Of a stretch of DNA of 32,406 nt, positions 6,860 to 8,829 are shown piece after piece. The position numbers were made by a program, and so were the translations under genes. This DNA is from Lachnospiraceae bacterium (lineage in GTDB: Bacteria; Bacillota; Clostridia; Lachnospirales; Lachnospiraceae), in NCBI GenBank assembly GCA_017442585.1, contig JAFRZM010000012.1, positions 1-32,406 of the forward strand, given 5' to 3'. Each line of letters begins with the position of its first letter. Within the stretch, counting starts at the first letter, position 1. The notes below the pieces were generated by a model. The model saw only the letters and a list, made by a program, of their open reading frames with translations. It made no database searches and was not told the DNA's origin.

Positions 6860-6879
6860 CAAGTCGCGTGTAGCGAAAT

Positions 6880-6963
6880 GCGGAAGTGCTGGAATTGGCA
6901 GACAGGCAAGACTAAGGATCTTGTGTTTGTATAGACGTGTGGGTTCAAGTCCCATCTTCCGCA
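6880..6963 (+). tRNA. tRNA-Leu (anticodon AAG)
   Basis: An 84-nt class II tRNA. Acceptor stem GCGGAAG (6880-6886) pairs with CTTCCGC (6956-6962), with discriminator A 6963; CCA is not encoded. The D-loop is leucine-like (GGAATTGGCAGA). The anticodon stem CAAGA/TCTTG encloses loop CTAAGGA, giving anticodon AAG at 6914-6916. A variable arm and a T-arm (GTGGG TTCAAGT CCCAT) follow. An A at position 34 in a leucine tRNA is uncommon in bacteria; if not an error it implies an I34 or unmodified-A decoder of CUN codons. The 3' 20 nt recur at 8810-8829 and shorter parts at 7110 and 7182, so this tRNA is an integration target. Confidence 0.95.
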
Positions 6964-7030
6964 TAAAGAGGAGAGAATCAGGAATTCCTGGTTCTCTTTT
7001 TTTATGTTTTCTCTCCTCTTTATGCGGAAG
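6956..7030. repeat. Perfect 22-bp inverted repeat that includes the tRNA acceptor strand
   Basis: Bases 6956-6977 are exactly complementary to 7009-7030, with the tRNA terminator in the loop. The left arm begins with CTTCCGC, the 3' acceptor strand of the tRNA. The right arm ends with GCGGAAG, a copy of the 5' acceptor strand that could compete for pairing if transcription reads through. Confidence 0.85.
6971..7005 (+). terminator. Terminator after tRNA-Leu(AAG)
   Basis: GAGAGAA, a mismatch, and CAGG-AATT-CCTG form a long hairpin ending in CTCTTTTTTT. It sits inside a larger inverted repeat (6956-6977 with 7009-7030). Confidence 0.8.
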
Positions 7031-7119
7031 GAGACCCGAACCCAGTGGGTTCAGGTCTCGCCTTCGGCTCGGTCGTTGCTAAACGCGTGCCACCGGCACG
7101 CAGCAACCCATCTTCCGCA
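7024..7119 (+). repeat. GC-rich structured unit 1 with tRNA-like closing stem
   Basis: The unit starts with GCGGAAG (7024-7030) and ends with CTTCCGC (7112-7118) plus A, the same closing stem as the tRNA. Inside are three hairpins. GAGACC/GGTCTC with GAACCC/GGGTTC encloses loop AGT (7031-7059). GCC-TTC-GGC lies at 7060-7068. GTTGCT(7075)..AGCAAC(7107) encloses GCGTGCC-ACC-GGCACGC. It is much richer in GC than its neighbours. The ORFs that run through it are artefacts of the stems. Function unknown; a palindromic mobile repeat is the simplest reading. Confidence 0.7.
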
Positions 7120-7192
7120 GGTCCATTCTCCGCTTCGCTCCGGTCGGCGCAAATCCAAGGTCCACCGGACCTCGTGCGCCACATCTTCCGCA
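7120..7192 (+). repeat. GC-rich structured unit 2, homologous in plan to unit 1
   Basis: It repeats the second half of unit 1 with changed stems. A CTC..CTTCG..GGTC block lies at 7128-7145. Outer stem GGCGCA (7146-7151) pairs with TGCGCC (7175-7180). Inner stem AGGTCC (7158-7163) pairs with GGACCT (7167-7172) around the same ACC loop. CATCTTCCGCA follows, as in unit 1. Loops and flanks are kept while paired bases change together. Confidence 0.65.
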
Positions 7193-7195
7193 TAA
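7182..7195 (+). repeat. Partial copy of tRNA-Leu 3' end (att-like site)
   Basis: These 14 bases (CATCTTCCGCATAA) equal 6953-6966, the tRNA 3' end and its first downstream bases. A terminator-like hairpin and a decayed integrase tail follow, so this looks like the left boundary of an old integrated element. Confidence 0.6.
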
Positions 7196-7416: not shown

Positions 7417-7429
7417 GCGGAGAATGCGA

Positions 7430-8719
7430 ATGGTAATAAAAAGAGATAAATACCTAAATCAATTGATAAATCGTATGAATAATGGATTAATAAAGGTAGT
7501 TACAGGAATTAGAAGGTGCGGGAAGTCATACCTTTTATTTGAGCTTTTTTATAATTATCTTTTAGAATCGGGGATTGATAAGAAGAATATTATTGCAATT
7601 CCATTAGATGATGAGGAATATGCGGCTTATTGTAATCCTCATGAATTATCCGAGTATATAAAAAGCAGAATAATCGATGATAGCGAGAAGTATTATGTTT
7701 TTATAGATGAGGCACAGTACGCAATCACAAGGGAAGAATTGAAGAATCCAGATATACCTATAAGATTGTATGGCGTATTAAATGGGCTTCTAAGAAGAAA
7801 AAACGTAGATGTATATATTACCGGCAGTAATTCAAAGTTCTTATCATCGGATATTATGACGGAATTCAGAGGAAGAGGAGATGAGATTCATGTTGCGCCG
7901 CTTTCTTTTTCAGAGTACTTACCTGCGTCAGGAAAGAATAAGTTTGAAGCTTGGGAAGATTATATTTACTATGGTGGACTTCCACATATTTTAGCTGAAG
8001 TAGACGAACAATCGAAAGTAGCATATTTAGATAGGCTTAATGGCGAGATCTATCTTCGCGATATGTGTGAAAGACATGATATTAGTGATGAAGCTGGGAT
8101 GGAAGAGCTTATGAAACTACTTGCTTCTGCTATTGGGTCATTGACTAATCCGCAGAAAATATTTGATACATTCCGTAGCTCCGGGCGTAAAGGTGTTTCA
8201 ATGCCGACAATTACTAATTATATGAGATATCTTCAGGAAAGCTACTTGATACAGAAAGCCGAAAGATATGATATTAAGGGAAGAAAATATATTAGTACAC
8301 CGTCAAAATACTATTATACGGATATTGGACTTCGAAATGCATTATTAAATTTCAGACAGCATGAAGAAACTCATATCATGGAAAATGTGATATATAATGA
8401 ATTGATTTATCGTGGTTTTAACGTAGATGTGGGAATTGTTGAAATAAGAGCTGATGAGAATGGTAAGAGAGTACGAAAACAACTTGAAGTGGATTTTGTA
8501 ATAAATAAGGGAAGCAAGAGATATTATATTCAGTCAGCATATGCATTACCGGATAAGGACAAAATGGCTCAAGAACAAGCGTCGCTTGTTAAGATTGCAG
8601 ATTCATTTAAGAAAATAATAATAGTCAATGGTAATTCAAAGATATGGAGAAATGAGCAGGGAATTACTATAATGAGTTTATTTGAGTTTCTTCTTAATGA
8701 GGATAGTCTGGATTTATAA
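7430..8719 (+). CDS. AAA+ ATPase with C-terminal DUF4143 domain
   Basis: Predicted ATPase of the AAA/DUF4143 family, 429 residues from the ATG at 7430. That start is preferred over the ATG at 7424 because GGAG (7419-7422) is then 7 nt away, and the resulting MVIKRDKYLNQLI matches the usual family N-terminus. Motifs: Walker A GIRRCGKS near residue 27, Walker B YVFIDEAQ, the sensor-like YITGSNS, and FRGRG followed by PLSFSEYL. The C-terminal DUF4143 part has EVDFVI and YYIQSAY, then KIADSFKKIII. The family is common, scattered by horizontal transfer, and without a settled function. Here it is the only intact gene between two tRNA-end repeats, so it is probably island cargo. Two dyads around its promoter suggest tight control. 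Confidence 0.88.
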   Translation: MVIKRDKYLNQLINRMNNGLIKVVTGIRRCGKSYLLFELFYNYLLESGIDKKNIIAIPLDDEEYAAYCNPHELSEYIKSRIIDDSEKYYVFIDEAQYAITREELKNPDIPIRLYGVLNGLLRRKNVDVYITGSNSKFLSSDIMTEFRGRGDEIHVAPLSFSEYLPASGKNKFEAWEDYIYYGGLPHILAEVDEQSKVAYLDRLNGEIYLRDMCERHDISDEAGMEELMKLLASAIGSLTNPQKIFDTFRSSGRKGVSMPTITNYMRYLQESYLIQKAERYDIKGRKYISTPSKYYYTDIGLRNALLNFRQHEETHIMENVIYNELIYRGFNVDVGIVEIRADENGKRVRKQLEVDFVINKGSKRYYIQSAYALPDKDKMAQEQASLVKIADSFKKIIIVNGNSKIWRNEQGITIMSLFEFLLNEDSLDL

Positions 8720-8809: not shown

Positions 8810-8829
8810 TTCAAGTCCCATCTTCCGCA
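8810..8829 (+). repeat. 20-bp exact copy of the tRNA-Leu 3' end (att site)
   Basis: Identical to 6944-6963 (T-loop through discriminator base of the tRNA). With the copies at 6944 and 7182 it brackets the ATPase gene as direct repeats, the pattern left by tyrosine-integrase insertion into a tRNA gene. The same 20 bases also end tRNA-Leu(CAG) at 21273-21292. Confidence 0.85.

Follow-up and report, generated by a model that had tools for sequence, protein, structure and literature searches.

What are the two GC-rich structured units that stand behind a tRNA-Leu gene in a Lachnospiraceae genome, and what put them there? The window, that is, the whole stretch of DNA analysed, comprises 32,406 nucleotides of contig JAFRZM010000012.1. 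From its letters alone, a preliminary description had singled out positions 7024-7192, where it saw two units with a common block, a bulged double stem and tRNA-Leu 3' ends, and had offered two interpretations, a mobile palindromic element making use of the tRNA end and a tRNA-mimicking RNA. All of these parts are indeed present there, and the interpretation was borne out in part: the mobile palindrome stood up to the analysis, whereas the tRNA mimic did not. The features of the locus are as follows.

6879..6964, plus strand: tRNA-Leu, anticodon AAG, the intact host gene (ARAGORN; Rfam RF00005 at 6880-6963, 50.4 bits)
6956..7030: 22-nt perfect inverted repeat (6956-6977 / 7009-7030) that runs from the tRNA 3' end through a terminator-like hairpin and back; the first Forward-Reverse junction
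6966-7003: terminator-like hairpin behind tRNA-Leu
7023..7044, minus strand: Reverse piece, made of the inverted acceptor end (7023-7030), GAGACC resembling an inverted-block tail, and an inverted T-arm half
7031..7059: hairpin 1, T-arm-tipped, arms 7031-7044 / 7046-7059
7045..7053, plus strand: 5' half of the tRNA T-arm in a second forward copy, GTGGGTTCA, an exact 9-nt copy of tRNA nt 61-69
7054..7108, plus strand: unit 1 core, in which block GGTCTCGCCTTCGGCTCGGTC (7054-7074) precedes bulged hairpin 2 (7075-7107); among the sequences used to train model R1, 66.9 bits
7107..7119, plus strand: displaced tRNA-Leu 3' end CCCATCTTCCGCA, which closes unit 1; exact 13-nt copy of tRNA nt 73-85
7125..7180, plus strand: unit 2 core, in which block 7125-7145 precedes bulged hairpin 7146-7180; among the sequences used to train model R1, 65.8 bits
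7182..7195, plus strand: displaced tRNA-Leu 3' end CATCTTCCGCATAA, which closes unit 2; exact 14-nt copy of 6953-6966
7424-8719: AAA_14/DUF4143 gene (Pfam)
8810..8829, plus strand: third displaced tRNA-Leu 3' fragment (TTCAAGTCCCATCTTCCGCA), without a core; exact 20-nt repeat of 6944-6963

Unit 1 carries CTTCGGCTCGGTC at 7062-7074, the outer stem GTTGCT/AGCAAC (7075-7080/7102-7107), the inner stem GCGTGCC/GGCACGC with an ACC loop, and CATCTTCCGCA at 7109-7119; the counterparts in unit 2 are CTTCGCTCCGGTC at 7133-7145, GGCGCA/TGCGCC (7146-7151/7175-7180), AGGTCC/GGACCT, again with an ACC loop, and CATCTTCCGCA at 7182-7192. As had been noticed, both the outer and the inner stems differ between the units yet stay paired, and tRNA-Leu (AAG) terminates with the same 11 letters as both units. 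The stem GCGGAAG/CTTCCGC, reported to close unit 1, is real as well and goes back to the tRNA 3' end, copied in inverted orientation. Two features were absent from the preliminary description, namely that the unit 2 closing copy extends beyond the end of tRNA-Leu, and the third 3' fragment at 8810-8829. The Reverse piece at 7023-7044 reached a score of 13 as an inverted T-arm plus block, compared with 0 of 300 shuffles. A promoter-like match upstream of tRNA-Leu was no stronger than in shuffles, and an Rfam scan of the window returned two tRNAs and no other match. The anticodon AAG is uncommon for tRNA-Leu in bacteria; a tRNA-Leu with this anticodon is also found in relatives and in Eubacterium ramulus.

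Elsewhere in the same genome, two tRNA loci carry sequences 95% and 93% identical to the two unit cores, which excludes a chance origin of the units, and weaker copies were found at two further loci; these four loci adjoin tRNA-Pro, tRNA-Met, tRNA-Arg and tRNA-Gly genes. The unit 1 core shares 93% identity with the tRNA-Pro core across 55 nt, while the unit 2 core is 96% identical to one core of the genome G004 and 91% identical to the tRNA-Met core of its own genome. In total, the genome holds 8 full cores at 5 loci, each beside a different tRNA gene (Leu, Pro, Met, Arg, Gly). The core spans ~55 nt and consists of a mini-hairpin block (TCTC-NNC-TTC-GNN-CGGTC) followed by a bulged two-part hairpin. 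A covariance model, R1, which was trained on the 8 cores, so that their own matches are built in, and which represents only the inner stem, returned 8 full and 2 partial cores in this genome, all at the five tRNA loci, with the next matches at E 0.2 and above. The 24 tRNA genes with 300 nt on each side make up ~1% of the assembly.

At E<=0.01, R1 matched 28 of 60 genomes (own included), among them all 6 other members of the genus, with 27 matches in G031, 26 in G033 and 42, many of them partial, in G057. In a class-wide sample, 17 of 293 genomes matched at E<=1e-6, and among the same-family genomes listed the count was 7 of 13 (own included). A block-pattern scan of named genomes found at least 119 stretches, mostly from Lachnospiraceae and some from Oscillospiraceae; among the matches listed, those in other phyla were coding-looking chance matches. 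ARAGORN placed a tRNA within 260 nt of the match in 31 of the 119 listed stretches (20/80 and 11/39). Matches beside a tRNA occur in the isolates Butyrivibrio sp. NC2002, Eubacterium ramulus 21 and Lachnospiraceae bacterium C6A11, and a match with a tRNA-Leu-like end in the isolate Roseburia hominis An869, which speaks against an artefact of metagenome assembly. All searches required the GGTC tag beside the stem, and cores with other tags would have been missed. The preliminary description had suggested a covariance-model search and had tied its element reading to the existence of further copies; R1 finds such copies both in the same genome and in other Lachnospiraceae, and that reading is not refuted. 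The feature is real, occurs across the Lachnospiraceae and sporadically beyond, and is a tRNA- and tmRNA-dwelling REP-like element not previously described in the literature searched, where the best-ranked matches held no description of this tRNA-linked hairpin family and four 15-letter pieces of the block were found in no paper.

How closely is the element tied to tRNA genes? Among 20 loci of the genus, ARAGORN found a tRNA near the core in 14, a tmRNA in 1 and a partial tRNA at a contig edge in 1; by eye, the cores of three more (L068, L069, L082) lie in orphan tRNA pieces, and L071 is without a tRNA piece. Rfam matched only L073 (tmRNA) and L080 (partial tRNA) among 20 core loci without an ARAGORN tRNA, and among 20 named loci it placed one core, in L206, inside a Clostridiales-1 RNA. 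In a sample of 167 loci (5 from the own genome, two sets of 80, the second from the 119 listed stretches, and L294 and L301), restricted to cores with 10 or more of 13 Watson-Crick pairs, an ARAGORN tRNA stands within 300 nt of 44 of 111 distinct cores, and many of the others belong to the dispersed copies of core-rich genomes, G031 and G033 for example. Cores are dispersed without tRNA pieces in the examined loci of G031, G033, G234, G342 and partly G008. Targeting of tRNA genes is strong in the genus and in many relatives and is not universal in the family. In L122-L142, from G033 and G031, the core sits within longer dispersed, near-identical repeats that have flanking hairpins of their own and mostly no tRNA pieces.

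The link extends to the identity of the tRNA. We compared unit flanks with the last 16 nt of the local tRNA at 36 loci, taking one unit per locus, collapsing identical ends and applying the same pairing filter (10 of 13), under which the own Gly locus dropped out. The longest matches summed to 373, compared with a mean of 183.5 (sd 13.3, maximum 247) under permutation, and 0 of 10,000 permutations reached 373. A tRNA-end copy of at least 9 nt was present at 24 of the 36 loci and lacking at 12. As a control within the own genome, three of the five tRNAs with a core (Leu, Arg, Gly) are followed by a direct copy of 9 nt or more from their last 16 nt, as are none of the 17 tRNAs without a core, two of which have only 34 and 114 nt downstream; two tRNA-Ser genes were set aside, as a loose block pattern (up to 3 errors) matched there while R1 found nothing at E<=10.

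At most tRNA loci examined by eye, the layout, read in the sense of the tRNA, runs Forward (tRNA, terminator), Reverse, Forward. The Reverse segment is the inverted end, often with the inverted block tail and T-arm half; the second Forward segment consists of a T-arm half or anticodon arm, the core and the tRNA 3' end, and the host tRNA is intact. An inverted T-arm plus block upstream of the core was significant in 15 of 27 loci tested. The insert amounts to ~130-170 bp per unit at the loci examined and contains no gene. Insertion points were located between GCAGAGG and CGAGGG in tRNA-Ala, between GCAGAGG and CGCAGG in tRNA-Pro, and between GGGTTCG and CCTCTCACGCAC in tRNA-Arg; the points examined by eye had 1-4 host nucleotides replaced and no target duplication. 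Immediately 5' of the core stands a purine-G motif; in most cases this is the GG(G) of the T-stem, next to the T-loop and on one or the other strand of the tRNA or tmRNA gene, while other cores lie in the variable loop. Across 130 distinct contexts, only RG at -2/-1 before the core and C after it were conserved; since the flanks are otherwise unconserved, the core is the mobile part.

Cores are mostly 3' of the tRNA, behind the terminator in examined loci, and occur in both orientations. Counting distinct blocks, a count in which several blocks per locus and related species enter more than once, the core follows the tRNA sense at Gly (31 to 1), Leu (6 to 1), Arg (5 to 0) and Lys (3 to 0), and opposes it at Pro (10 to 0, all ten with anticodon CGG), Met (8 to 0) and Ala (1 to 0); Gln, His and Val are represented by single cases. 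This rule held in 12 of 12 blocks from the 39 loci outside the set from which it was formed. These 39 further listed stretches, which stand outside the 167-locus sample, served for orientation, interruption cases and the pooled pair and context counts. A fixed orientation per tRNA type could reflect old insertions inherited vertically.

Some cores interrupt RNA genes themselves. In the own genome, the intact tRNA-Pro has upstream of it a near-complete pseudo-tRNA-Pro whose variable loop contains a core; in another family, a pseudo-tRNA-Lys has a core in its T-loop (L317); and in the isolate C6A11 (L276), a second tRNA-Pro copy has the core after the anticodon-loop sequence. In L271 (3463-3590), the core lies in the T-loop of a whole tRNA-Lys-CTT gene within a tRNA cluster, and no second or intact copy of that gene was found within the 4 kb examined. 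In L206 (7725-7948), it lies after GGG in the last hairpin of the Clostridiales-1 RNA (RF01699), a structured-RNA host of a third kind, and no second copy of this RNA was found within the 8 kb examined. These two direct interruptions show that duplication of the host is not obligatory for insertion; the host duplications may be part of the event, or may have been kept since they spare a needed gene.

Filled and empty sites were then compared within the genus. In G004, the tmRNA site is filled, and its Reverse and Forward pieces are specific to tmRNA; the site is empty in G000, G001 (~130 nt before the contig end), G002, G005 and G006; in G003, the end lies outside the sequence seen. The tRNA-Arg-ACG site is filled in G000 and G005, truncated in G003 and empty in G004. 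The Leu-AAG site is filled in G000 and empty in G005, and in G006 no core was found in the 112 nt before the contig end. In G002 (L294), the Leu-AAG site has the same layout of terminator, inverted T-arm, T-arm, block, bulged hairpin and CCCATCTTCCGC. No tRNA fragment was seen by eye at the empty sites. As far as genome comparison can tell, the core and the tRNA copy are thus shown to come or go together at the tRNA-Arg, tRNA-Leu and tmRNA sites, and it is possible that single filled or empty sites reflect loss rather than gain. Between hosts, the tmRNA core of G004 is identical to the tRNA-Met core at 55 of 55 nt, and the nearest of 24 other genus cores to unit 1 is the own tRNA-Pro core (93%), which differs mainly by paired changes in the outer stem. 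The L294 hairpin is different and longer, a second hairpin type at the same spot, and the sequence behind the tRNA-Leu-AAG terminator in G006 (L290), which is cut by the contig end, resembles what we take to be the start of a group II intron.

The many copies at tRNA ends, the covarying stems and the filled and empty sites give good support to the palindromic mobile element that had been envisaged. We consider it fairly probable that the units are two copies of a non-autonomous, REP-like mobile hairpin that spreads among tRNA and tmRNA genes, presumably copied by template switching. Under this proposal, the core would insert 3' of a purine-G motif within tRNA or tmRNA genes, in the T-stem or the variable loop; the layout suggests that copying would proceed by replication template switching at hairpins, namely the terminator palindrome, the T-arm or the anticodon arm. 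The near-universal T-arm may provide the homology that passes the core between hosts, the duplicated tRNA part would let an insertion survive in a needed gene, and the stems could drift and still stay perfect if palindrome copying repairs one arm from the other. A bolder form of the proposal remains tentative, and we regard it as more doubtful than probable: that a protein-less hairpin spreads without a dedicated transposase among tRNA, tmRNA and other structured-RNA genes by template switching on stems such as the T-arm, is usually fixed with a terminator-primed inverted and a forward copy of the host 3' end, and is harmless inside essential RNA genes.

REP sequences of the GTAG- and CGTC-tagged types are described as short, repeated, non-autonomous palindromes whose stems differ within a family and which have a short unpaired tag beside the stem, the CGTC type being without a dedicated transposase (Di Nocera et al. 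2013, PMC3733652). As far as that description goes, the present element resembles them in being a short repeated palindrome, with a hairpin of 33-35 nt against ~20-40 bp for REP, and in being non-autonomous, with varying stems and a short tag beside the stem. It differs in its tag, GGTC with a mini-hairpin block rather than GTAG or CGTC (also TGTC, CCTC), in its stem of 6+7 bp with a fixed asymmetric bulge, and in residing in tRNA and tmRNA genes with copies that bear the host's own end. The main text of that paper makes no mention of Clostridi-, Butyrivibrio, Roseburia, Eubacterium or Firmicutes. Mitochondrial GC clusters are likewise described as tiny hairpin elements, mobile or suspected to be so, that merge, shuffle and change quickly (PMC4478555), as are repetitive hairpin-forming elements including double hairpins, tiny and quick-changing too (PMC2800124). 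These reside in organelle genomes, and in contrast to the present element, duplication of a host tRNA 3' end is not among the features described in those accounts (PMC4478555, PMC2800124).

The element may offer a bacterial parallel to the mitochondrial GC clusters, a selfish palindrome that colonises tRNA and tmRNA genes without breaking them. Its residence in tRNA, tmRNA and similar RNA genes, mostly in copies with the host's own end, is unusual for REP-like elements. Each insertion leaves its trace in ends specific to the host, so that the sequence reveals gain, loss and donor, and the spread of transposase-less palindromes becomes a directly testable question; in a large gut and rumen family, tRNA ends would be points of rearrangement.

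Could the core instead be moved by a transposase supplied from elsewhere? The main rival explanation, which we judge rather unlikely, invokes HUH/Y1 (IS200/IS605- or RAYT-type) single-strand transposition in trans, with the core as a minimal MITE, one end of which is the hairpin and the other a mini-hairpin of the GCGAAGC type, and with tRNA duplications that would be secondary and persist under selection, since they spare the host gene. MITEs derived from IS200/IS605 have hairpins near their ends and insert in a fixed orientation after a short motif without target duplication. The element, too, has hairpins near its ends and may be inserted in an oriented manner after RG; at the insertion points examined, 1-4 host nucleotides were replaced and no target duplication was seen. 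Its hairpin is conserved with an asymmetric bulge, and the core-rich genomes G031 and G033 contain Y1_Tnp genes. Moreover, RNA genes are interrupted directly without duplication, and the insertions in L271 and L206 somewhat lower our confidence in the REP-like hairpin explanation and in its bolder form and give more weight to HUH transposition in trans. However, no Y1_Tnp (PF01797) match was found in 10 of 15 core-bearing genomes (7/7 of the genus, G008, G017 and G019), and none of the 23 Y1_Tnp loci in the other 5 genomes has a convincing core (best E 0.023). In both respects, the element departs from REP sequences with a RAYT, and its lack of a Y1 match in the genus also sets it apart from IS200/IS605 MITEs, as do the inverted tRNA piece and tRNA copy at most tRNA loci; HUH transposition by itself leaves the inverted tRNA pieces unexplained. 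For the genus, a RAYT/Y1 link was rejected, as 0 of 7 genomes have a Y1_Tnp match.

A second rival, which we hold to be improbable, regards the units as remnants of tRNA-targeting integrative elements, in which the 3' fragments are attachment-site scars and the cores small accretions between them. In genomic islands that target tRNA genes, an intact tRNA is accompanied by a displaced 3' fragment, and the element, too, has a displaced 3' fragment behind an intact tRNA (though not in L271). Besides these displaced ends, the tandem unit arrays of L215 and L099 are in keeping with such remnants, as is the AAA_14/DUF4143 gene, which is bracketed by the tRNA-Leu ends 7182-7195 and 8810-8829. The segment 7118-8827 of the window is 96% identical in G004, with both limits at tRNA ends in the window, and the same G004 contig holds two further DUF4143 genes with two cores beside the group. 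The tRNA ends thus appear to act also as limits of a small genomic islet. Nevertheless, inverted tRNA pieces would not be expected of scars, nor would copies whose start lies upstream of the T-loop, as at tmRNA, Ala and Pro, and the part shared between hosts is the core. The insert of each unit, ~130-170 bp long and devoid of genes, combines a shared core hairpin with a tRNA piece in inverted orientation and is also unlike an island; no integrase gene was found in the inserts at the examined loci, which are too short for a gene. Finally, the phage and plasmid collections are nearly empty of the element. Carriage on plasmids was rejected after blastn of 7020-7195 returned 0 plasmid records, as was carriage on phages, the same query returning 1 record, MT837213, an unverified scaffold whose match lies behind a tRNA and so may be chromosomal. 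In IMG/VR, the exact block pattern occurs in 4 stretches only, and ARAGORN found no tRNA in the parts examined.

Do the stems evolve as DNA or as RNA? Watson-Crick pairs occupied 505 of 520 cells in 40 class A hairpins and 876 of 910 cells in 70 class B hairpins, and double changes were seen at 10 of 13 and 11 of 13 stem pairs, respectively; slid pairings, used as a control, fell to 19-28%. Within the stems, G.T (13/1,430 cells) and A.C (15/1,430) were equally rare, compared with 25/504 and 3/504 in the tRNA acceptor stems of the examined loci. Only cores that had passed a pairing filter entered these counts. The filter raises the pairing percentage, but as it accepted G.T as a pair, it works in favour of G.T. 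Paired substitutions without a G.U excess fit a DNA palindrome and argue against selection on an RNA fold; they would fit a palindrome that is kept perfect by copying of one arm from the other, or one that is recognised as single-stranded DNA. That selection on RNA folding maintains a conserved, tRNA-linked structured RNA, be it a tRNA mimic, a decoy or a processing element, is therefore very improbable, for although unit 1 has a cloverleaf-like outline and a strong fold (z -6.9; 0 of 200 shuffles as good) and the element recurs at the same tRNA types across genera, its stems show no G.T excess, both orientations to the tRNA occur, it is absent at orthologous tRNAs of sister species and, the two tRNAs aside, nothing in the window matches Rfam. 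Unit 2 by itself shows no such advantage over its shuffles (z -1.2; 22 of 200 as good). The tRNA-mimicking RNA of the preliminary description is accordingly unsupported, given the equal rarity of G.T and A.C, the two core orientations and the position of the cores mostly 3' of the tRNA.

Units may also be repeated in a row. At tRNA-Gly, they follow each other in steps of ~149 nt in L215 and of 133 and 170 nt in L099, and in L178, where no tRNA was found, in ~97-nt steps. L303 and L086 each contain a head-to-tail pair of directly joined cores.
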